Source: Steroidobacteraceae bacterium (GTDB lineage Bacteria > Pseudomonadota > Gammaproteobacteria > Steroidobacterales > Steroidobacteraceae). Taken from it: a DNA stretch of 64,000 bases. The position numbers and the translations under genes were made by a program. The DNA lies in the NCBI GenBank assembly GCA_019187495.1, contig JABAQN010000025.1, forward strand, positions 1-64,000, read 5' to 3'. The notes under the pieces were generated by a model, which was not told where the DNA came from, did not search any database, and was given only the letters and a program-made list of their open reading frames with translations. Below, piece after piece: positions 9,052-63,185 of this stretch; position 1 is the first letter of the stretch; every line of letters starts with the position of its first letter.

Positions 9052-9126
9052 TGGTGCCGGGCTTTCGGTTGTTCGGTTATTGCGCGCCAACGGCGCAATA
9101 ACCGAACAACCGAAAGCCCGGCACCA
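9052..9126. repeat. 75-bp palindromic element, copy 1
   Basis: Two exactly complementary 30-base arms (9052-9081 and 9097-9126) flank a 15-base centre, GCGCGCCAACGGCGC, which itself forms a four-base stem. The arm starts TGGTGCCGGG and ends TTCGGTTATT. It starts nine bases after the stop of the receptor gene. Its last base is the A of the next gene's ATG, so that start codon sits at the foot of the hairpin. There is no U-tract, so it is not a classical intrinsic terminator. Confidence 0.97.
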
Positions 9127-15610: not shown

Positions 15611-15685
15611 TGGTGCCGGGTTTCCGGTTGTTCGGTTATTGGCGGGCTCCGCCCCAATAACCGAACAACCGGAAACCCGGCACCA
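15611..15685. repeat. 75-bp palindromic element, copy 2 (compensatory arm changes)
   Basis: Arms 15611-15640 and 15656-15685 flank the centre GGCGGGCTCCGCCCC. Compared with the other copies, the left arm differs at arm positions 11 (C to T) and 14 (T to C). The right arm carries exactly the complementary changes, so pairing is perfect. It lies between the terminator of the receptor gene and the start of the sulfotransferase-like gene. Confidence 0.97.
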
Positions 15686-15690
15686 GGGCG

Positions 15691-15723
15691 AAAAAAAGCG
15701 GCGGTCCCTTGCGGAACCGCCGC
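15691..15723 (-). terminator. Intrinsic terminator of the TonB receptor gene at 15765
   Basis: On the reverse strand an 11-base stem (plus-strand 15698-15708 pairing with 15713-15723, one G-U pair) with a four-base loop is followed by seven Ts (plus-strand A run 15691-15697). It lies about 40 bases after the receptor stop codon. This is the clearest intrinsic terminator in the window. It shows that the adjacent palindrome is not needed for termination here. Confidence 0.85.
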
Positions 15724-15764
15724 CAGTTTCTCATACGTTCAGTTCGTTATCGGTCAGGCCACCT

Positions 15765-24520: not shown

Positions 24521-24595
24521 TGGTGCCGGGCTTTCGGTTGTTCGGTTATTGCGCCCTCCCGGCGCAATAACCGAACAACCGAAAGCCCGGCACCA
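24521..24595. repeat. 75-bp palindromic element, copy 3
   Basis: Arms 24521-24550 and 24566-24595 are perfectly complementary and match the consensus. The centre is GCGCCCTCCCGGCGC, with a five-base stem. It fills the gap between the stop codons of two convergent genes, four bases after one and three after the other. Confidence 0.97.
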
Positions 24596-51908: not shown

Positions 51909-51983
51909 GGTGCCGGGCTTTCGGTTGTTCGGTTATTCGCGCGCTGCGCGCGAATAACCGAACAACCGAAAGCCCGGCACCCG
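51909..51983. repeat. 75-bp palindromic element, copy 4
   Basis: Left arm 51909-51938, centre CGCGCGCTGCGCGCG (a perfect six-base stem with a three-base loop), right arm 51954-51983. The arms pair over 29 of 30 positions; only the outermost base is changed (C for A at 51983). It lies between the co-directional PAP2 and PD40 genes, directly after the PAP2 stop. Confidence 0.97.
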
Positions 51984-52097
51984 CCGCTCGGCTGACCACG
52001 GCTCGGACCCGAAACACCGCGGCGCCCGGATGCCCTTGGCGCACCCCTCGTGCGGGCGGAAGATGCGCGCTCGCGAGGCTCAACGACGGTGAATACC

Positions 52098-53186
52098 ATG
52101 AAGCTGATCCCGACTGCGACCCTGGCCACTTCCGCGGCGTTCGCTGCATTGCTTTGCGCCGGCACAGCGTTGTCCGCCGCCCAGGCCGATGCACCGCGCG
52201 ACCCGCGCGAACTGCCGTACTACATGATCCCGAACATTCCCGATGCGGCGGAGGCCTACTGGGCCCCGGACTCGCGCCACCTGATCGCACAGACGCGTGA
52301 CAAGCGCGCCCTGCCGACGAAAAGCGGCGGGCTCGGCGCGCTGACCTGGATTTTCACCGCCGACGGCACCGAGATGTGGAACGTCAACGACCATGGACAG
52401 GACGGCTGCTCGTTCTTCTTCCCGGATGGCCAGCGCATCGTGTGGACCTCGACGCGCGACAACATGTCGATGCCGATCGGCAACTGGTCCGATTCCGACG
52501 ACTACCCGCAGGGCGCCGAGTTGTATTCGTCCGACCTGCACGGCGGCCACCTGAAGCGGCTCACGAACAACAAGTGGTATGAGGCCGAAGTTTCGGTGTC
52601 GCCCGACGGCAAGTGGATCACGTTCGGCCGGCAGATCGACGGCAAGATGGACATCTGGGTGATGCGATCGGACGGCACCGGCGAGTTCCAGGTCACGCGC
52701 ACCGACGACTGGCAGGAAGGCGCGCCGTTTTTCATGCCGGACAGCGAACACATCATTTTCCGCGCGTGGAAGCGCGCCGACTACAAGAAGGTGCGCCCGA
52801 CGCCGATGACCGTGTTCACGATCAGGCGCGACGGCACCGACTGGCGGCGCCACACCTTCGACAATGGCATGAACTGGCATCCGGTGCCGGCACCCGACGG
52901 CCGCCACTACGTGTATGTGAAAGCGCTGACCGAGTCGAACTGGGAAATCTATCTCGGCGATCTCGCGGGCGGTGAGCCGCGGCGGCTCACCTACTTCGAC
53001 AATCTCGACTTCCTGCCGCAGGTCTCGCCCGACGGCAAGAAGATGAACTGGGCCCGCGCGCGCGGGCCGGGCTTCATGCAGGGAATCCGCACCTACGTGA
53101 TGGACGTGTCATCGCTGAACCTGGGCCGCGAGCACGCGGTGCCGTTCGACCCGAACTGGGGACAACCGATGACGGCGGGGCGGTAG
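52098..53186 (+). CDS. Secreted TolB-like (PD40) beta-propeller protein
   Basis: 362 residues from ATG 52098 with a signal peptide (KLIPTATLATSAAFAALLCAGTALSAAQA). The body is a six-blade PD40/WD40-like propeller: YWAPDSRHLIAQT, FFPDGQRIVWTSTRD, VSVSPDGKWITFGRQIDGKMDIWVMRSDGTG, FMPDSEHIIFRAW, PAPDGRHYVYVKA and VSPDGKKMNWARA. There is no hydrolase domain, so it is a binding or scaffolding protein rather than a peptidase. Such proteins resemble TolB and the propeller part of S9 peptidases. It is flanked on both sides by palindrome copies 4 and 5. Confidence 0.9.
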   Translation: MKLIPTATLATSAAFAALLCAGTALSAAQADAPRDPRELPYYMIPNIPDAAEAYWAPDSRHLIAQTRDKRALPTKSGGLGALTWIFTADGTEMWNVNDHGQDGCSFFFPDGQRIVWTSTRDNMSMPIGNWSDSDDYPQGAELYSSDLHGGHLKRLTNNKWYEAEVSVSPDGKWITFGRQIDGKMDIWVMRSDGTGEFQVTRTDDWQEGAPFFMPDSEHIIFRAWKRADYKKVRPTPMTVFTIRRDGTDWRRHTFDNGMNWHPVPAPDGRHYVYVKALTESNWEIYLGDLAGGEPRRLTYFDNLDFLPQVSPDGKKMNWARARGPGFMQGIRTYVMDVSSLNLGREHAVPFDPNWGQPMTAGR

Positions 53187-53194
53187 CGGAAACC

Positions 53195-53269
53195 TGGTGC
53201 CGGGCTTTCGGTTGTTCGGTTATTCGGGCGCTTCGCCCGAATAACCGAACAACCGAAAGCCCGGCACCA
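53195..53269. repeat. 75-bp palindromic element, copy 5
   Basis: Left arm 53195-53224, centre CGGGCGCTTCGCCCG, right arm 53240-53269. Arms and centre pair perfectly, giving a 36-base-pair stem with a three-base loop (CTT). It is the most stable copy. It lies between the stops of two convergent genes, nine bases after the PD40 gene and about ten before the TonB receptor end. Confidence 0.98.
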
Positions 53270-53278
53270 TTGTTGCCT

Positions 53279-55930
<2,652 letters not shown>

Positions 55931-56093
55931 GATCTTCCCCCCTCGTTATGGAAGAGACGATCGAAGCCCCGCTTTTCCTCAGCAGCATCGCAGGCAGGAG
56001 CGCGACGAGCTTGACTCGAGCCGCGATGCGCGCCTAGTTTCGCGCCCCACGCCCGATCCGCGGCAACTCGACGGCTCGGCACACGGGAGCAAC

Positions 56094-57116
56094 ATGCTGA
56101 AGAAGACAGTCCTCCGCGCCGGATGCGTCCTGGCGACTCTCCTCGTGGCGAACCAGGCGCTCGCCCTCAACATCCTGCTGACCAATGACGACGGGTTCGA
56201 GAGCGCGCAGATCCGCGCGCTGTACGCGAGCCTCGAAGCGCGCGGGCACAGCGTCGTCATCTCCGCCCCGGCACAAAACCACAGCGGCTCCGGTGGCGCA
56301 ATGAATTTTCTCCAGCCCATCGGGCCGCTCACACGGCCCACTCGCGGCGGCACCGTACCCGCCGGCGAGCCGGGTGTCGGCCGTGATCGGTCCGATCCCG
56401 ATATCCACTATGTGAATGGCACACCGGTCATGTCGCTCCTCTACGGGCTCGACGTGATCGCATCGAGGAAATGGGGCGCAGCGCCCGATCTCGTGATTTC
56501 CGGCCCCAACGAGGGCAACAATCAAGGCATGATCAATCCCGCCTCGGGCACGTTCAACAATGCGTTGTTCGCGATCAATCGCGGCATTCCGGCCATCGCG
56601 GTGAGCACCGGCGAGGTGGCGCAGAAGAACGGACTGCCCACCGACCCCGGGGCGACCGAGTTCAGGATCGCCTCGCTGGTCGTTGCCCTGATCGAGCGGA
56701 TCGAACGGAACAACGAACGGGCGCACCGGAGGACATCGTTTCTGCCGCCGGGCACCGGCCTGAATGTGAATGTGCCGAAGTTCGATCCGGCACACGGCTG
56801 CACCCCGGAAAAGTACCACTTCACACGCGTCGGCACCGCCACCGCCTATCAGCCGGTTTTCTTCGAGAAGCTCTCGGAGAGTCCGGCGGCCGTCAGCTTC
56901 GGTGCCGCGTCTCCCTTGCCGGGTATCTCGTTCGTGCTGGCCGGTGGCAAGGCGCCGGCCGGCGTCCGGCTCGTCGAAGATGACGATCCGGACTCCGAGG
57001 CCAATGCGAACCAGGAGTGCTTCATTTCGATCAGCCCGATCCAGGGTGTGCCGGAAGCCTCGGCGGCGAATGCCAGGGCGGTGCGCGCACGGCTGCGGGG
57101 AATACCGACGAAATAG
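56094..57116 (+). CDS. SurE-like 5'/3'-nucleotidase, secreted
   Basis: 340 residues from ATG 56094 with GGGAG upstream. Unlike cytosolic SurE it has a signal peptide (MLKKTVLRAGCVLATLLVANQALA). The SurE core is recognisable: NILLTNDDGFESAQIRALYASLEARGHSVVISAPAQNHSGSGGAM (metal ligands in NDDG, N in APAQNHSG), VNGTPVMSLLYGL and DLVISGPNEGNNQGMINPASGTFNNALFAINRGIPAIAVST. Family members are metal-dependent nucleotidases or exopolyphosphatases. It stands alone on the forward strand between the broken receptor and the reverse-strand fecR-type gene. Confidence 0.9.
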   Translation: MLKKTVLRAGCVLATLLVANQALALNILLTNDDGFESAQIRALYASLEARGHSVVISAPAQNHSGSGGAMNFLQPIGPLTRPTRGGTVPAGEPGVGRDRSDPDIHYVNGTPVMSLLYGLDVIASRKWGAAPDLVISGPNEGNNQGMINPASGTFNNALFAINRGIPAIAVSTGEVAQKNGLPTDPGATEFRIASLVVALIERIERNNERAHRRTSFLPPGTGLNVNVPKFDPAHGCTPEKYHFTRVGTATAYQPVFFEKLSESPAAVSFGAASPLPGISFVLAGGKAPAGVRLVEDDDPDSEANANQECFISISPIQGVPEASAANARAVRARLRGIPTK

Positions 57117-57154
57117 CCCTGTCGTGCGGCCATCTGCCGCGCAAGAGCGGCTGG

Positions 57155-58114
57155 TCAATCCCGCTTTGCGAGGTGGAGCACGATCTGCGACTGCATGAGA
57201 TCGGCCCGCGCCGGAAGCAGCTCACACACCGAGCGGGCGAACGCCTCGGGATCGCCGGTACCGTAGACGCCACTGATATGCATGGCCGCGAGCGCCGCAT
57301 CGGCAATCACCAGCGGGCGGCGCGTGTAGCGGTTCATTTCAGCCACGGCCTCGGCGAGCGACCGGTCGTCGAAGACTGCGCGCCCCGTCTGCCACGCCGT
57401 CACCTCGTTGAGGTTCGGCTGATCCTGCACGACCCGCCCCGACCCTTCGAACACGATTCGTTCGCCCGCCGAGAGCATGCGGGTGGCCGATTGCGGCGCA
57501 TCGACCACCGGCTGGACTGCGACCCGACCCTCGATCAGGGCGACCGTGACTTCGTCATCGCGGCGAAACACATCGAAGGCGGTACCCACGGCAATCACCT
57601 GCCGGACGCCCGCCTGTACCCGAAAGGGCCGCAGTGGATCGGTCGCCACTTCGAAGTACGCCCGTCCCTCGATCAATTCGATCTGCCGTTGCTGCCGGGT
57701 GAAGGCGACGCGTATGCGCGTATGCGTATCCAGGGTCACGGAGGATCCATCGTCCAGGGCGATCCGCCGCTGTTCACCCACCCGGGTCCGGTAAGATTCG
57801 CCGCCCGCGAGCTGCCAGACACTCACGCCCGCGATCGAAGCCAGTGCCCCAGCGCCCCCGAGGACCAGCGCGCGCCGATTGACCGCGCGGAGAGGCCGAT
57901 GATCACGCCCGGCGTGCCTGCCCAGGCTGCCGGTCGCCTCCCAAACCTCCGATACACGTTCGAAAGCCTGGGCGTGCCGGGCGTCGTGCGTGAGCCACGC
58001 GCGAAAGCCGGCCTCATCCGCGGGCCCGCGCTCCTCCGAACGCAGCCGGGCCAGCCAGGCCGCGGCTTCGGCCCTGATGCTGTCGGTACTCTCTTCGCGC
58101 GGCACGCCAGACAC
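57155..58114 (-). CDS. FecR-type anti-sigma factor / transmembrane signal transducer
   Basis: 319 residues from GTG 58114, one base after the sigma-factor stop (TGAAGTG), a translationally coupled start; an in-frame TTG at 58141 is the alternative. The cytoplasmic part (EAAAWLARLRSEERGPADEAGFRAWLTHDARHAQAFERVSEVWEAT) is the sigma-regulating domain. One membrane helix follows (LVLGGAGALASIAGVSVWQLA, about 85-105). The periplasmic FecR domain contains RRIALDDGSSVTLDTHTRI, ELIEGRAYFEVA and FDDRSLAEAVAEMNRY. It would receive a signal from an STN-type receptor, for which the interrupted gene at 53279 is the obvious partner. Confidence 0.93.
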   Translation of the reverse strand: MSGVPREESTDSIRAEAAAWLARLRSEERGPADEAGFRAWLTHDARHAQAFERVSEVWEATGSLGRHAGRDHRPLRAVNRRALVLGGAGALASIAGVSVWQLAGGESYRTRVGEQRRIALDDGSSVTLDTHTRIRVAFTRQQRQIELIEGRAYFEVATDPLRPFRVQAGVRQVIAVGTAFDVFRRDDEVTVALIEGRVAVQPVVDAPQSATRMLSAGERIVFEGSGRVVQDQPNLNEVTAWQTGRAVFDDRSLAEAVAEMNRYTRRPLVIADAALAAMHISGVYGTGDPEAFARSVCELLPARADLMQSQIVLHLAKRD

Positions 58115-58115
58115 T

Positions 58116-58649
58116 TCACCAACCCTCTGTCCAACCGGCAAGGAACAATGCCGCCTTTGCGACGTGCTTCTCGACGGCGCTGACTGTGATACCGAATCGG
58201 GCGGCGATTTCCCGGTACTTCAGCCCATCGACCCGATGCATCAGGAAGACCTGCCGGGTCCGCGGGCTCAATGCTGCCAGACCCGCCTGCACCCTTTCCA
58301 GACGTTCTCGGGTCTCCAAAACCTCATCATGCAGCGGCTGGCCGTCCGCCAGGTCGATCATCCTGTAGACAGAATCCGGGATCTCGGCCCGCACCCGCTC
58401 GTGGCGCGCCTCGTCGACTGCGATATTGGCAGCCACCCGAACCAGAAAGGCAGCCGGATTCTCGACCGCATGCCGCGCGCGGTACTCCTCGAGACGCAGG
58501 AACGCCGAATGCAGCAAGTCCTCCGCACGCTGCGGATCGCGCGTGACCCTGGCTACGCGTCGCACCAGCGCTCGCCACCCGCCGCGATCGCGTGGCAGTC
58601 GTTCCTGGGACAAGGCCTGCTCCCCCCGGCGCACACTCGCTCCCTGCAC
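58116..58649 (-). CDS. ECF sigma factor, FecI-type
   Basis: 177 residues from GTG 58649. Region 2: DPQRAEDLLHSAFLRLEEYRARHAVENPAAFLVRVAANIAVDEARHERVR; region 4: GLAALSPRTRQVFLMHRVDGLKYREIAARFGITVSAVEKHVAKAALFL. The closing AVEKHVAKA segment is the FecI-type hallmark. A TTG at 58613 preceded by GGGGGAG is an alternative start and would remove twelve non-conserved residues. It is followed directly by fecR-type 57155 and presumably directs transcription of an iron-uptake gene set, as in the Fec paradigm. It is divergent from the metal-uptake operon, 73 bases away. Confidence 0.92.
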   Translation of the reverse strand: MQGASVRRGEQALSQERLPRDRGGWRALVRRVARVTRDPQRAEDLLHSAFLRLEEYRARHAVENPAAFLVRVAANIAVDEARHERVRAEIPDSVYRMIDLADGQPLHDEVLETRERLERVQAGLAALSPRTRQVFLMHRVDGLKYREIAARFGITVSAVEKHVAKAALFLAGWTEGW

Positions 58650-58722
58650 CGAAGGCTAACATCCGATGCGGCAATCGGGCAGAGGGCGGGCGAGATTGCC
58701 AAGTCATCAGGTGTGCGCCAAC

Positions 58723-59094
58723 ATGGGTGCGGAACGTCGCCATGGACACCGCGAGTCGAGCCCGGAGCATCAGGCCCTGAGCAGAGCCCGAGTCAACCTG
58801 ATCACGCGCCTGCTGTCGCTCGCGCTGCTTTGCGCCCAACTCGGTGCGCAGGCGCACGCTTATTCACATTTCGGCTCCGATCCGCACGGCGCGCCGGCAA
58901 CCACCCAGCTTTGCAGCGCCTGCCTGTCGATCACGCCGCTGTGCGGCGCGGTCGGTCCGGCGCCGCTCGCACTGCCCGTCGATCTGCGCACGGCGCAGAT
59001 CGTCGTGCCTGCCGAATCCGTCGCTCCGGCGGATCGTTTCCACCACCCCGCTTTCCGCTCCCGCGCTCCGCCCGCCGTCCTTCGCGCCGACTGA
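58723..59094 (+). CDS. Small DUF2946-like secreted protein
   Basis: 123 residues from ATG 58723; the start is not certain. A hydrophobic signal region (NLITRLLSLALLCAQLGAQAHA) is followed by YSHFGSDPHGAPATTQLCSACLSITPLCGAV. The QAHAYSH and CSAC motifs are typical of the DUF2946-like proteins often encoded at the head of metal-uptake operons, possibly metal-binding through the cysteines and histidines. It is the first of four co-directional genes ending in the metal ABC permease, which supports a metal role (inference). Confidence 0.7.
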   Translation: MGAERRHGHRESSPEHQALSRARVNLITRLLSLALLCAQLGAQAHAYSHFGSDPHGAPATTQLCSACLSITPLCGAVGPAPLALPVDLRTAQIVVPAESVAPADRFHHPAFRSRAPPAVLRAD

Positions 59095-59148
59095 TCACAC
59101 GACCGCGCGTGCGCGGCCGTGAACGTTCGCTTCGCGAGGAGACGTTCC

Positions 59149-60534
59149 ATGACTCCAGTTCGACCCATCGTGGCGCTGTGCGCGCTCGGGTTGGCTTCCA
59201 TGCCTTCCTTCGCCGCCACCGCGGACGATGCCGCGGGCCTGCGCGCCGAACTCGACGCGCTCAAGGCCGATTACGCAACGCGCATCGGGGCGCTCGAGGC
59301 GCGCATCGCGCAGCTCGAGGCGGCGGCATCCAACGCGCGACAGCCGGCGCCCGCAGCTTCCGCACCGCCCGCCGATGCCACACGCAGCGCCGCGACGGCC
59401 TTCAACCCGGCGATTTCCCTGATCATCGGTGGCAGCTACACCGCCACATCACGCAATCCGGACGACTGGCGATTGGCTGGCTTCATGCCGGCGGGTGGCG
59501 AAACCGGCCCCGGCGATCGCAGTTTCAACCTCGGTGAATCGGAACTCACGCTGGCGGCGAACGTCGACCCGTATTTTTCGGCCACGATGACCGCGGCGAT
59601 CTCCGGCGAGAACGAGATCGAGGTCGAGGAGGCCTTCTTTCGCACGCTCGCGCTGCCCGCGGGGTTCAGCGCGAAAGGCGGCCGCTTCTTCTCCGCCTTC
59701 GGCTACCTGAACGAGGTACACGCACACGCCTGGGACTTCGTCGATCAACCGCTCGTGTACCAGGCGTTCTTCGGCAACCAGATGGCGCAGGACGGGTTGC
59801 AGGTGAAGTGGCTCGCGCCGACCGATCTCTTTCTCGAGTTCGGCGCCGAAGCGGGCAACGGCGACGCATTCCCGGCGACGCATCGCCAGCGAAACGGCGT
59901 CAACGCCACCGCGCTCTTCGCGCACGTCGGCGGCGATCTCGGCGTCGCGACGAGCTGGCGGGCGGGTGCCGCGTGGCTCGATCAGCGCGCGACGGATCGT
60001 GCCTACGACGACATCGACGCCCTCGGCAATCCGGTCATCGATGCTTTCAGTGGTACCGCCCGCACCTGGATCTTCGACGCGGTGCTCAAGTGGACGCCGG
60101 GTGACGCCACGCGCCGGCAGCTGAAGCTGCAGGGCGAGTACATGCGTCGCAGCGAACGCGGCGCGCTCGCCTACGACGTGGACGCGCTCGATCTCGCGGG
60201 CGGCTATCGCAGCGAGCAATCCGGCTGGTACCTGCAGGGCGTCTATCAGTTCAATCCACGCTGGCGGGCCGGACTGCGCTACGACGCGCTCGATTCCGGC
60301 GCGTCCTTCATCGGGCTCGTCGACGACGGCACGTTGCCCGTCGGCGCCTTCCCGCGACTGCGCGTCGCGGATCCGGATCGCGTATCGCTGATGCTCGACT
60401 GGAACCCGAGCGAGTTCACGCGCCTGCGCGTGCAGGTGAGCCGGGACGAGGCGCGCGCCGACGGTGATCCGGACCGGCAACTGAAGCTGCAATACCTCCA
60501 CGGCATCGGCGCGCACGGCGCGCACAAGTATTAG
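59149..60534 (+). CDS. Outer-membrane beta-barrel protein of a metal-uptake operon
   Basis: 461 residues from ATG 59149 (GGAG eight bases upstream). A signal peptide ends SFAATADD. A coiled-coil segment (LRAELDALKADYATRIGALEARIAQLEAAASNA, about 25-60) and a proline/alanine linker follow, then a porin-like barrel of alternating strands (NPAISLIIGGSYTAT, AWDFVDQPLVYQAFFGNQMAQDGLQVKWLAPTDLFLEFGAEAG) ending QLKLQYLHGIGAHGAHKY. Histidine-rich spots (NEVHAHAWDF, the HGIGAHGAH tail) hint at metal binding. It resembles porins such as OprO/P in layout, but no family is assigned. It is probably the outer-membrane entry route for the metal captured by the next gene product. Confidence 0.82.
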   Translation: MTPVRPIVALCALGLASMPSFAATADDAAGLRAELDALKADYATRIGALEARIAQLEAAASNARQPAPAASAPPADATRSAATAFNPAISLIIGGSYTATSRNPDDWRLAGFMPAGGETGPGDRSFNLGESELTLAANVDPYFSATMTAAISGENEIEVEEAFFRTLALPAGFSAKGGRFFSAFGYLNEVHAHAWDFVDQPLVYQAFFGNQMAQDGLQVKWLAPTDLFLEFGAEAGNGDAFPATHRQRNGVNATALFAHVGGDLGVATSWRAGAAWLDQRATDRAYDDIDALGNPVIDAFSGTARTWIFDAVLKWTPGDATRRQLKLQGEYMRRSERGALAYDVDALDLAGGYRSEQSGWYLQGVYQFNPRWRAGLRYDALDSGASFIGLVDDGTLPVGAFPRLRVADPDRVSLMLDWNPSEFTRLRVQVSRDEARADGDPDRQLKLQYLHGIGAHGAHKY

Positions 60535-60544
60535 GAGCACCCGC

Positions 60545-61453
60545 ATGACGGCACTCAACCGCAACGCAATCGCGTTCCTTGCCATCCTCTGCTGCGCCGC
60601 GCCCGCCCACGGGGCAATGCGCATCCTCGCGACCACGAGCGACTGGGGCGCCCTCGCCCGCGAACTCGGTGGCGACAAAGTCGATGTGTACGTGGCAACC
60701 ACGGCGAAACAGGATGTCCATCGCGTCGAGGCGAAGCCGAGTCTCGTCGCGCGGGCGCGCACCGCCGACCTGCTCGTTGCGACCGGCGCGGAACTCGAGA
60801 TCGGCTGGCTGCCGGTACTCGTGCGCGAATCCGGCAATCCGCGCATCCAGCCGGGCGCGACCGGCTACTTCGAGGCCGCGGCACAGCTGAAGCTGCTCGA
60901 CGTGCCGGTGCACTTCGATCGCGCGATGGGGGATATCCATCCGCAGGGCAATCCGCACGTGCAACTCGATCCGCGCAATATCGCCATCGTGGCGAAGGCG
61001 CTCGCGGCACGCCTCGCGGTGATCGACGCGTCGAACGCGACGTACTACGCGCAGCGGGCGGCGGATTTCGAAACTCGCTGGCAACAGGCGATCGCACGCT
61101 GGACGGCACGGGCGGCGCCGCTCGAGGGCGTGCCCATCGTCGTGATGCACAAGGACCAGGCCTATCTCTGCCATTGGCTCGGGCTCGTGGAGGTGGCCGC
61201 GATCGAGCCGAAGCCGGGCGTGCCGCCGAGTGCCGGTTACCTCGGGGAGCTCGTCGTGAAACTCGGTGCGTCGCCGCCGAAAATGATACTGCGCAACGCC
61301 TACAACGATCCGAAGGCGTCCGAGTGGCTCGGCGGGCGCATTCATGTGCCGGTGGTGCTGCTGCCATTCTCGGTCGGCGGCACGCCGGGCGCGAAGGATC
61401 TCTTCGGGCTTTTCGATGACACGCTCGACCGTCTGCTGGCGGTGCCGCGATGA
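60545..61453 (+). CDS. Metal ABC transporter substrate-binding protein (ZnuA/cluster A-1)
   Basis: 302 residues; GGAG precedes the ATG and the signal peptide is MTALNRNAIAFLAILCCAAPAHGA. Metal ligands typical of the A-1 family are visible: QDVHRVEAKPS, GNPHVQLDP and VMHKDQAYLCHWLGL, then a late acidic ligand region (RNAYNDPKASEWL). There is no histidine-rich loop like that of E. coli ZnuA. Zinc is the likeliest metal, but manganese cannot be excluded. It starts ten bases after the outer-membrane protein gene, and its stop overlaps the permease ATG. Confidence 0.9.
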   Translation: MTALNRNAIAFLAILCCAAPAHGAMRILATTSDWGALARELGGDKVDVYVATTAKQDVHRVEAKPSLVARARTADLLVATGAELEIGWLPVLVRESGNPRIQPGATGYFEAAAQLKLLDVPVHFDRAMGDIHPQGNPHVQLDPRNIAIVAKALAARLAVIDASNATYYAQRAADFETRWQQAIARWTARAAPLEGVPIVVMHKDQAYLCHWLGLVEVAAIEPKPGVPPSAGYLGELVVKLGASPPKMILRNAYNDPKASEWLGGRIHVPVVLLPFSVGGTPGAKDLFGLFDDTLDRLLAVPR

Positions 61454-62235
61454 GTCTCTTCGACACCGATATCGCGATCCTGTGGCCCGCGCTGCTCGCG
61501 GGGCTGCTCGTCGCCGTCTCGCACGTGCCGCTCGGCCAGCAGGTGCTCGCGCGCGGCATCGTGTTCATCGATCTCGCCATCGCACAGGTTGCCGGACTCG
61601 GCGTGATCGCAGCGAACGGCTTCGGGCTCGAGCTGACCGGCTGGGGCTCACAGGCAGCCGCCGGCGCCGCAGCGCTCGCCGGCGCGCTGCTGCTCACCTG
61701 GACCGAGCGCAAGCGACCGGAAGTACAGGAGGCGCTGATCGGCATCCTCTTCGTGCTCGCGTCCACCGCGCAGATCCTGCTGCTCGCCAACGATCCGCAC
61801 GGCGGCGACAACCTGAAGGACCTTCTCGCGGGCCAGATCCTCTGGGTGTCGAATGCCCAGCTGATCCGCACTGCCGTCGTGACCGCGATCTTCGCGGCCG
61901 TCTGGTTCCTCTGGCGCGAACGGATCGGCCGCGTCGGGTTCTACGTGCTGTTCGCACTCGTCGTGACGGCCTCGGTGCAGCTCGTCGGCGTCTACCTCGT
62001 GTTCACGACGCTGATCGTGCCGGCGGTCGCCACCTGTCGCCTCGCGGCCAAGCGCCGGCTCGTGTTCGGCTACGCCGTGGCGTTCGCCAGCTATCTGGCG
62101 GGGCTTGCGATCTCCGTCGTGACGGATCTGCCGTCGAGCGCGGTGATCGTGTGGACGATGGCGCTCTTCGCCCTGGGCACGCACCTGGTGCCGGGCTTTC
62201 GGTTGTTCGGTTATTCGCGCGAAGCGCCGGAATAA
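61450..62235 (+). CDS. Metal ABC transporter permease (ZnuB/ABC-3 family), C-terminus supplied by a palindrome
   Basis: 261 residues with seven or eight membrane helices; FIDLAIAQVAGLGVIAANGFG, ALIGILFVLASTAQILLLANDPHGGDNLKDLLAGQIL and GVYLVFTTLIVPAVATC are ABC-3 permease hallmarks. ATG 61450 overlaps the binding-protein stop. The natural chain appears to end near MALFALGTH. The last residues, LVPGFRLFGYSREAPE, and the stop codon are encoded by palindrome copy 6. No gene for an ATP-binding subunit lies in this operon, so the ATPase must come from elsewhere or the transporter is incomplete. Confidence 0.92.
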   Translation: MSLFDTDIAILWPALLAGLLVAVSHVPLGQQVLARGIVFIDLAIAQVAGLGVIAANGFGLELTGWGSQAAAGAAALAGALLLTWTERKRPEVQEALIGILFVLASTAQILLLANDPHGGDNLKDLLAGQILWVSNAQLIRTAVVTAIFAAVWFLWRERIGRVGFYVLFALVVTASVQLVGVYLVFTTLIVPAVATCRLAAKRRLVFGYAVAFASYLAGLAISVVTDLPSSAVIVWTMALFALGTHLVPGFRLFGYSREAPE

Positions 62236-62260
62236 CCGAACAACCGAAAGCCCGGCACCA
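62186..62260. repeat. 75-bp palindromic element, copy 6, inside two convergent genes
   Basis: Left arm 62186-62215, centre CGCGCGAAGCGCCGG (partly mispaired), right arm 62231-62260; arms perfectly complementary. It lies inside the 3' ends of both flanking genes. The permease reads it on the forward strand as VPGFRLFGYSREAPE then TAA, the sulfotransferase-like gene reads it on the reverse strand as VPGFRLFGYSGASRE then TAA. The two genes overlap by 25 bases within it. Confidence 0.97.
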
Positions 62261-63185
62261 CGCCCAGCCGCGCGAGTGCCGGCCGTGCTATTTCGTCGAC
62301 GGCGCGACGCAGTTCTGCGCTGGCCGCGGCCTGCTTGGTCGCCGCGTCGCCGCTGAAGGGTGTCGTGCTCGTGACCGGCGCTTTTGCATGCCGGGTCGCG
62401 GCCTGCGCCATGCGGTCGCGCGCCACCTCACTCACGGGCAACGAAAAGTGCGGCGCGACGTCGCCCCACGTTGCCCCAGGCAATTCGGCATATTCGACCA
62501 GGCGGCCCTTTCCCGGATCGAGGCGCACGACGGAATCACAGAATGCGGCATAGGTGCGAGCGACGAGTTCTTCGTTGCTTCGCGAGCGGTTCTGCGGGTC
62601 GACAATCGTTGCAAAGCGCCGCGACATCTCGTCCGTCCCGAGCAACCAGCCGGGCGGCCGCTGCAGCAGCGACACGCAGACCTCGACCGGATCCCGCAGG
62701 CACAGCACCCAGGGCGAATCCGGGAATGCCTCGGTGAGCAGGTCGCAATGGAGCGTATTCCAGCTCGTGAGCTTCAGGACGTAAGGCCGCGCCGCGTGCG
62801 CCGCGAATGCGGCGCCCAACGATCGCAGCGCCGCGACCATTCGTGCGTGCGGCCAGGGCTGCGGCGGGCGCAGGATTTCATTGACCGGCGGCGGCTCGGC
62901 GTAAACGGCGCAGCCGCCCTGCAATTTCAACAGTTGCGACACGAGCGTCGAGCCGCAGCGCGCGACATGGAAGATGATCCCGGCAGGACCCGACCCGGGC
63001 GGCGCGCGACCGAGATCCTGCATCTCGATCTGCACATACTCCTCCGGCGCCGCACTGCGGGCGAGCGTCTCCTTCATGAACGGGTCGTGCAGTTCCGGCA
63101 CCGCGATGTCGCGCAGTTGAAGGTATAGCCCGGTCGGATGCAGCGCCGCGCGCGCCGGCAGCCAGTCCCCCTGCCCGTGATGCAT
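62211..63185 (-). CDS. Sulfotransferase-like P-loop protein, C-terminus supplied by a palindrome
   Basis: 324 residues, a paralogue of the protein at 14596. The P-loop-like GIIFHVARCGSTLVSQLL is at about residue 69. YVLKLTSWNTLHCDLLTEAFPDSPWVLCLRDPVEVCVSLLQRP matches the 3'-phosphate-binding region of sulfotransferases. LVEYAELPGATWGDVAPHF is typical of this bacterial branch. The substrate is unknown. The last 15 residues, VPGFRLFGYSGASRE, come from palindrome copy 6. It is divergent from the JmjC-type oxygenase gene at 63209, which is again the sulfotransferase/oxygenase pairing seen at 419-2697. Confidence 0.85.
   Translation of the reverse strand: MHHGQGDWLPARAALHPTGLYLQLRDIAVPELHDPFMKETLARSAAPEEYVQIEMQDLGRAPPGSGPAGIIFHVARCGSTLVSQLLKLQGGCAVYAEPPPVNEILRPPQPWPHARMVAALRSLGAAFAAHAARPYVLKLTSWNTLHCDLLTEAFPDSPWVLCLRDPVEVCVSLLQRPPGWLLGTDEMSRRFATIVDPQNRSRSNEELVARTYAAFCDSVVRLDPGKGRLVEYAELPGATWGDVAPHFSLPVSEVARDRMAQAATRHAKAPVTSTTPFSGDAATKQAAASAELRRAVDEIARPALARLGVVPGFRLFGYSGASRE

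Follow-up and report, generated by a model that had tools for sequence, protein, structure and literature searches.

The window analysed here is a stretch of 64,000 nucleotides (contig JABAQN010000025.1, positions 1 to 64,000) of the genome of a Steroidobacteraceae bacterium (GCA_019187495.1; 3.57 Mb in 80 contigs), labeled G000; the other six members of the same genus are labeled G001 to G006. Two convergent genes meet at the first repeat listed in Table 1, one encoding a permease that matches the ABC-3 family of Pfam (E 5e-21), the other a sulfotransferase-like protein whose match to Sulfotransfer_3 (E 6e-6, 27.2 bits) is barely above the 27-bit cut-off. The palindrome gives the last 15 codons and the TAA to both of them, and their overlap of 25 bp falls entirely within it. 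According to the translation of the open reading frames the permease ends in ...THLVPGFRLFGYSREAPE and the sulfotransferase-like protein in ...LGVVPGFRLFGYSGASRE; both genes enter the element in the frame GTG CCG GGC TTT CGG TTG TTC GGT TAT and are closed by the far-arm TAA. The preliminary description, in which a single palindrome supplies the C-terminal tail and stop codon of two convergent genes, is therefore borne out by the sequence and its open reading frames; three-frame translation of this copy likewise agrees that both strands encode VPGFRLFGY with a TAA in frame, the VPGF frame alone being closed while the other two stay open on both strands.

Searching the window for the arms gave 12 matches and 100 shuffled versions gave none, thus placing the palindrome beyond chance. 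The predicted RNA fold of the copy at the gene junction reaches -66.5 kcal/mol (z -12.9). Scanning the window at the Rfam gathering thresholds returned no family, and neither tRNA nor tmRNA genes were found in it.

Table 1. Coordinates of the palindromic repeats and of the two convergent genes in the window
Feature	Position	Strand	Remarks
75-bp palindromic repeat	62186..62260	none	30-nt arms (29-nt core plus outer T/A) and 15-bp centre
Left arm, 29-nt core	62187..62215	+	identical to the consensus of 45 copies
15-bp centre	62216..62230	none	same centre also in G000 copy C44_16235 and in one G001 copy
Right arm	62231..62259	-	perfect reverse complement of the left arm
ABC-3 family (metal) permease	61450..62235	+	tail codons 62188-62232 and TAA 62233-62235, inside the palindrome
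Sulfotransferase-like gene	62211..63185	-	tail codons 62258-62214 and TAA 62213-62211, inside the palindrome
Copy of the repeat	9053..9125	none	10 bp behind a gene on +
Copy of the repeat	15612..15684	none	adjoins an apparent ordinary intrinsic terminator; G002, G004 and G005 retain remnants, G006 shows none
Copy of the repeat	24522..24594	none	between convergent genes, stops 5 and 4 bp away
Copy of the repeat	51909..51981	none	6 bp behind a gene on +
Copy of the repeat	53196..53268	none	between convergent genes, stops 9 and 10 bp away

The element belongs to a family with 45 complete copies and one lone half in G000, all taken from stretches picked by arm matches with up to three mismatches, so that more decayed copies would be missed. 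The lone half, which has no partner arm, lies at G000:C1:145563-145591. Complete copies (core arms plus centre) measure 63 to 80 bp, 73 bp being the commonest length, and have the ends GGTGCC/GGCACC. Both arms of a copy are identical in 41 of the 45, with four mismatches over 1305 arm positions; between copies, arm positions 10 and 13 vary, and whenever they do the change is present in both arms. The centre was first described as being of fixed length, which does not hold for the family: centres in G000 range from 5 to 22 bp, and 25 of the 45 have 15 bp. Direct repeats of 2 to 5 bp, looked for at two offsets as signs of a target-site duplication, occurred in at most three of the 45 copies for any one length and offset, and no duplication was seen.

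Using a strict palindrome pattern, the family was detected in 6 of 217 genomes of the Steroidobacteraceae, all six within the genus, with 43, 27, 21, 4, 1 and 1 copies; the same pattern gave no copy in G006, the seventh member (78% complete), nor in the 210 family genomes of other genera. A mismatch-free arm pattern retrieved five stretches from a collection of 84,980 species, located on three sets of MAG contigs, and had no match among viral contigs. A literature search, which included Steroidobacteraceae together with palindromic, found no report of this repeat family.

Perfect palindromes are prone to assembly artefacts, and the three named record sets carrying the arms are all MAGs, as would be expected if the repeats were hairpin chimeras of a metagenome bin; however, the family occurs in six of the seven genus genomes with species-specific arms and shared sites, and the copy at 62186 lies in the middle of its contig between two intact genes, leaving the artefact a negligible probability. 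Elsewhere in the window, a short stretch at about 55002-55175 has many similar sequences (about 66-85% identity) scattered over all six genus genomes; it may be a repeat or a common domain.

The REP transposase family (RAYT; Y1_Tnp, PF01797) was searched in 21 genomes, with a positive E. coli control and four positive genomes of the order, and was found in none of the seven genus genomes, drafts of 78-100% completeness in which a gene may have been missed; it was the sole family sought as a parent transposase. SbcD (TIGR00619) was found in none of the nine family genomes searched, all seven genus members included, and its absence may make long palindromes tolerable. The idea that SbcCD loss marks the element-rich species was rejected, SbcD going unfound in rich and poor species alike. 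Copy-rich species are G000, G001 and G003, and copy-poor ones are G002, G004, G005 and G006.

The position of the copies relative to genes was analyzed with a codon-usage gene caller of our own, in place of a standard annotation. Of the 45 copies in G000, 34 begin 0-16 bp behind the stop of a flanking gene and three contain the stop codon of a gene; among the element sides that face a gene 3' end, 46 of 59 do so at a distance of 0-15 bp. The 16 bp behind a 3' end, which make up 12.3% of the intergenic bases in the same stretches, hold 34 of 42 copies (binomial p 5e-24). Moreover, 16 of the 44 copies having two called neighbours lie between convergent genes, compared with 42 of all 244 pairs of neighbouring genes in those stretches, a total to which the element pairs also contribute. 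Of the eight copies that neither lie within 16 bp behind a called stop nor supply one, two are in frame inside genes; the six others include two between divergent genes and one beside an apparent ordinary terminator. Most copies are harmless, since they already lie behind an existing stop (34/45).

Gene-end placement, the many convergent pairs, the predicted hairpin energy and an enrichment of T/C on the outer flanks over all copies would also suit bidirectional transcription terminators that were placed and kept by selection for termination, some of them having slid into coding ends. Nevertheless we regard this as unlikely: the copy at 62186 has the G+C-rich hairpin of an intrinsic terminator, yet the scan found no terminator-type T run there; where a copy lies inside a gene, the reading frame continues through it; and the copy at 15612 sits beside what appears by eye to be an ordinary intrinsic terminator. 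The latter, at about 15691-15725 on the minus strand, directly adjoins the palindrome, so that the genome seems to use classical terminators as well.

The double tail can be compared with G005, in which the same two genes are convergent neighbours with no element between them, both stops sharing one CTAG. On either side, the alignment of the G000 flank with G005 reaches the element or stops no more than one base short of it, and in place of the element G005 has about 36 bp containing both stops; because of these 36 bp between the aligned flanks, the G000 site is no simple insertion relative to G005. A CTAG junction holds no spare stop, and therefore an element replacing it would have to end both genes. 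The proposed sequence of events is as follows: the element would have replaced a spacer-free stop junction like that of G005, removing both native stops at once, and the two genes would have been left to end in the element, each entering its one closed frame. More generally, the frame of a gene lacking a stop of its own ahead of the element runs into it and ends there, as can be read directly from the copies concerned.

Homologues outside the element lack the tails: 13 permease homologues from other genomes have unrelated and variable native tails, and the sulfotransferases of G002, G005 and G006 have native ends, with no element at the site in G005 and G006 and with one 46 bp behind the gene in G002. 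None of the homologues compared carries the same C-terminal residues without a palindrome, so that the first condition named as refuting the preliminary description brought no refutation. In G001 and G004 the sulfotransferase orthologue likewise finishes within the element (VPGFRLFGYSGAARE; VPGFRPFGQ in G004, where a decayed copy closes the tail early with a TGA); the tail of this protein is therefore common to three species, and the permease tail was seen in G000 alone. Trees from three proteins resolved the genus poorly. The permease was not found in G001, where a single element lies between a 365-aa gene and the sulfotransferase (G001:C5:110045-113030), an arrangement that looks as if the intervening segment (window 52079-62260) had been lost by recombination between copies like those at 53196 and 62187. 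Taken together, we consider it likely that a genus-restricted, interspersed and nearly perfect gene-end palindrome replaced a stop junction here, and that both genes now end in it; the RNA hairpin, the transcription and the peptide tails are predictions from the DNA.

Additional proteins read into copies of the family. In G000, 12 open reading frames were flagged, four of which were counted as C-terminal and two as in-frame internal read-ins; the remaining six (L062+, L064-, L065+, L068-, L046+ and L070-) were dropped by judgement, as they are probably antisense or chance frames. Beyond the permease and the sulfotransferase, the C-terminal cases in G000 are a gene for a 5-formyl-THF cyclo-ligase and one for an RNA methyltransferase, which we take to be ygfA-like and rsmE-like. 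The six flagged in G001 comprise three C-terminal (a TauE-family gene, presumably tauE-like, the sulfotransferase and the ygfA-like gene), one internal and two dropped (L192+ and L194+), the families in both genomes being assigned from Pfam; in G003 three candidates were flagged among the 12 copies fetched. Two conserved genes contain an internal copy in frame: an FAD oxidoreductase in G000, G001 and G003 (L068:2467-4098), with three further genus orthologues lacking it, and a MacB/FtsX-type permease in G000 and G005 (L065:780-3455), with four further orthologues lacking it, two rows of this last alignment being too short to judge.

The ygfA-like protein ends in ...VPGFRLFGYFGAAAPK in G000 (centre of 18 bp) and in ...GAGFSVIRLLWRRRAITE in G001 (centre of 15 bp), so that one and the same gene end is read in different frames of the element in the two species. 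In G003 to G006 the orthologues have short native tails followed directly by the same downstream sequence and no element; the G002 row of this comparison was unreadable. The peptide of the VPGFRLFGY frame was present on four proteins in two species, namely the permease, the sulfotransferase (in both species), the G000 ygfA-like and the G001 tauE-like protein. Such recurrence could point to a selected functional peptide, for instance a sorting or degradation tag, an explanation we find scarcely credible given that the G001 ygfA-like and G000 rsmE-like proteins use another frame with another peptide, and that homologues do without a tail. Rather, the proteins would simply tolerate the borrowed peptide as baggage, their C-termini varying freely from one homologue to another. 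In transcripts, the element would form a very stable 3'-end hairpin of the REP type, which may shield the ends of mRNAs or delay ribosomes at the stop codon.

It had also been proposed that the centre length is partly maintained because 15 bp keep a TAA in the VPGF frame, making insertion at gene 3' ends harmless. This geometry is real for the copy at 62186; moreover, the centre is a multiple of three in 62 of 87 copies from three genomes (41 of those 62 being 15 bp long), and its length modulo 3 is kept in 16 of 21 orthologous pairs. However, when length 15 is excluded multiples of three drop to 21 of 46 (p = 0.055), so that most of the excess is length 15 itself. This length is found in 24 of the 40 G000 copies counted as untranslated and in one of the five translated; all but one of its 25 occurrences in G000 are thus in copies counted as untranslated. 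Every strand examined closes at least one frame (90/90 in G000, 60/60 in G001 and 24/24 in G003; 174 strands), mostly by means of the far-arm TAA, the centre setting which entry frame meets it. Furthermore, only 8 of 30 centres in G001 have 15 bp, centre length is equal in 9 of the 21 orthologous pairs, and the ygfA-like tail is reached through different frames around centres of 18 and 15 bp in the two species. Centre lengths and frames do not support the proposal, and the reading of the centre as selected is largely refuted; we consider it very improbable.

To what extent the family persists at given sites was evaluated by pairing copies between species, that is, copies at the same gene ends or at the same place in a gene; the pairs were picked by hand. 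Sixteen of the 30 complete copies fetched from G001 pair with G000 sites, as do five of the 12 fetched from G003, a partial sample of the about 21 copies in that genome. The G001 partner of the copy at 62186 could be paired with it or with the copy at 53196, because it lies between the sulfotransferase and the gene adjacent to the latter. Left out of the 21 pairs were the G000-G005 pair C6_24686, a half copy in G004 (L035), two G003 loci with flanks more than 1 kb apart (L198 and L205) and sites without a complete element. In all 21 pairs (G000 vs G001 or G003) the species differ at arm position 19, and do so in both arms: the base is G in G000 and A or T in G001 and G003. In the G000-G005 pair, located inside the MacB/FtsX-type permease gene, the arms are identical between the two species and the centres almost so. 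For the most part centres do not match between orthologous copies, yet the very same centre can turn up at other sites and in other species.

These observations can be read in two ways. Each lineage might have inserted its own copies independently into common hot spots, in which case the shared sites would not be one old, homogenised set; the mostly unrelated centres at orthologous sites, the identical centres at non-orthologous ones and spacer lengths that sometimes differ all fit such a history. On the other hand, with thousands of gene ends available, 16 of 30 G001 copies at G000 sites should greatly exceed the chance expectation; some junctions, e.g. C50_4707, C3_137364 and C6_24686, match base for base on one side or both; and the 15612 site holds short remnants or half copies, different in each species, in G002 (L122), G004 (L115) and G005 (L117), which point to an old presence, so that separate insertion seems rather unlikely to us. 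The remnants look like leftovers of separate deletions, and they suggest an older and wider set decaying in the copy-poor species. Conversion, replacement insertion or a changed reader protein may account for the paired arm changes. We give somewhat less than even odds to the reading that the gene-end palindromes hold their sites over the long term and change sequence in concert, tails and in-frame peptides being by-products.

When compared with known systems, the family resembles REPs in having many dispersed palindromic copies (45 in G000), mostly behind genes. REPs of the GTAG and CGTC super-families are presented, in the passages of PMC3733652 concerned with them, as palindromes of 20-40 bp that lie for the most part behind genes, in many cases where the neighbouring genes are convergent or unidirectional, that give TAG stop codons to flanking ORFs and that are sometimes found within ORFs. 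For E. coli, a portion of PMC12306157 reports that REPs at most 15 nt from the stop stall ribosomes or lower translation. Unlike those REP descriptions, our copies have 63-80 bp and end in GGTGCC/GGCACC with no GTAG/CGTC tag; their arms of 29-30 nt are nearly perfect, and, in contrast to RAYT-linked REPs, no Y1 transposase was found in the seven genus genomes (78-100% complete).

Rickettsia palindromic elements (RPEs), as outlined in parts of PMC2229807, PMC3767692 and PMC10969869, are in-frame palindromic inserts of about 100-150 bp in conserved genes of Rickettsia and Wolbachia, to which they add a peptide, the insertion site being shared by orthologues. Copies of the present family likewise lie in frame within conserved genes that have orthologues without them (the FAD oxidoreductase and the MacB/FtsX-type permease); judged by those descriptions they are set apart by lying mostly at gene ends, by their nearly perfect arms and by the unrelated clade. 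Bacterial MITEs (Correia/NEMIS, RUP, ERIC, YPAL and RU-3) are described in part of PMC2229807 as small inverted-repeat elements whose transcripts form long hairpins and some of which fuse in frame with ORFs, RU-3 at the C-terminal end. Small size, inverted repeats, a (here predicted) hairpin and in-frame fusion are common to both, whereas in our family no target-site duplication was seen, no parent transposase was identified with PF01797 as the one family sought, and the palindrome is nearly the whole element, which differs from the MITEs as described there. In mitochondria of Nematomorpha, according to the section of PMC6649704 on this subject, perfect inverted repeats lie in coding sequence and both arms encode conserved protein regions; the inverted repeat inside a protein-coding sequence is thus shared with the present case, which differs from that account in being a dispersed repeat added to unrelated proteins.

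Because REPs give stops and lie in ORFs, and RPEs are in-frame palindromic inserts, the double tail is an event of a known kind; the family differs in its length, the perfection of its arms, the lack of a tag, the failure to find a RAYT and the genome-wide paired arm changes. That a single repeat should end two convergent genes, and with an identical peptide, takes to a neat extreme the known process by which repeats give stops. The family offers a natural gradation: some copies follow a stop, some supply it and some sit inside a protein, and sister species provide sites without the element, so that one can watch repeats turning into protein ends. The paired arm changes make the homogenisation of short bacterial palindromes testable in a genus without a found REP transposase; if the concerted change is true, it would imply an unknown copying or conversion system that works without a REP transposase and where no SbcD was found, or else a genome-wide reader protein whose target word has changed.
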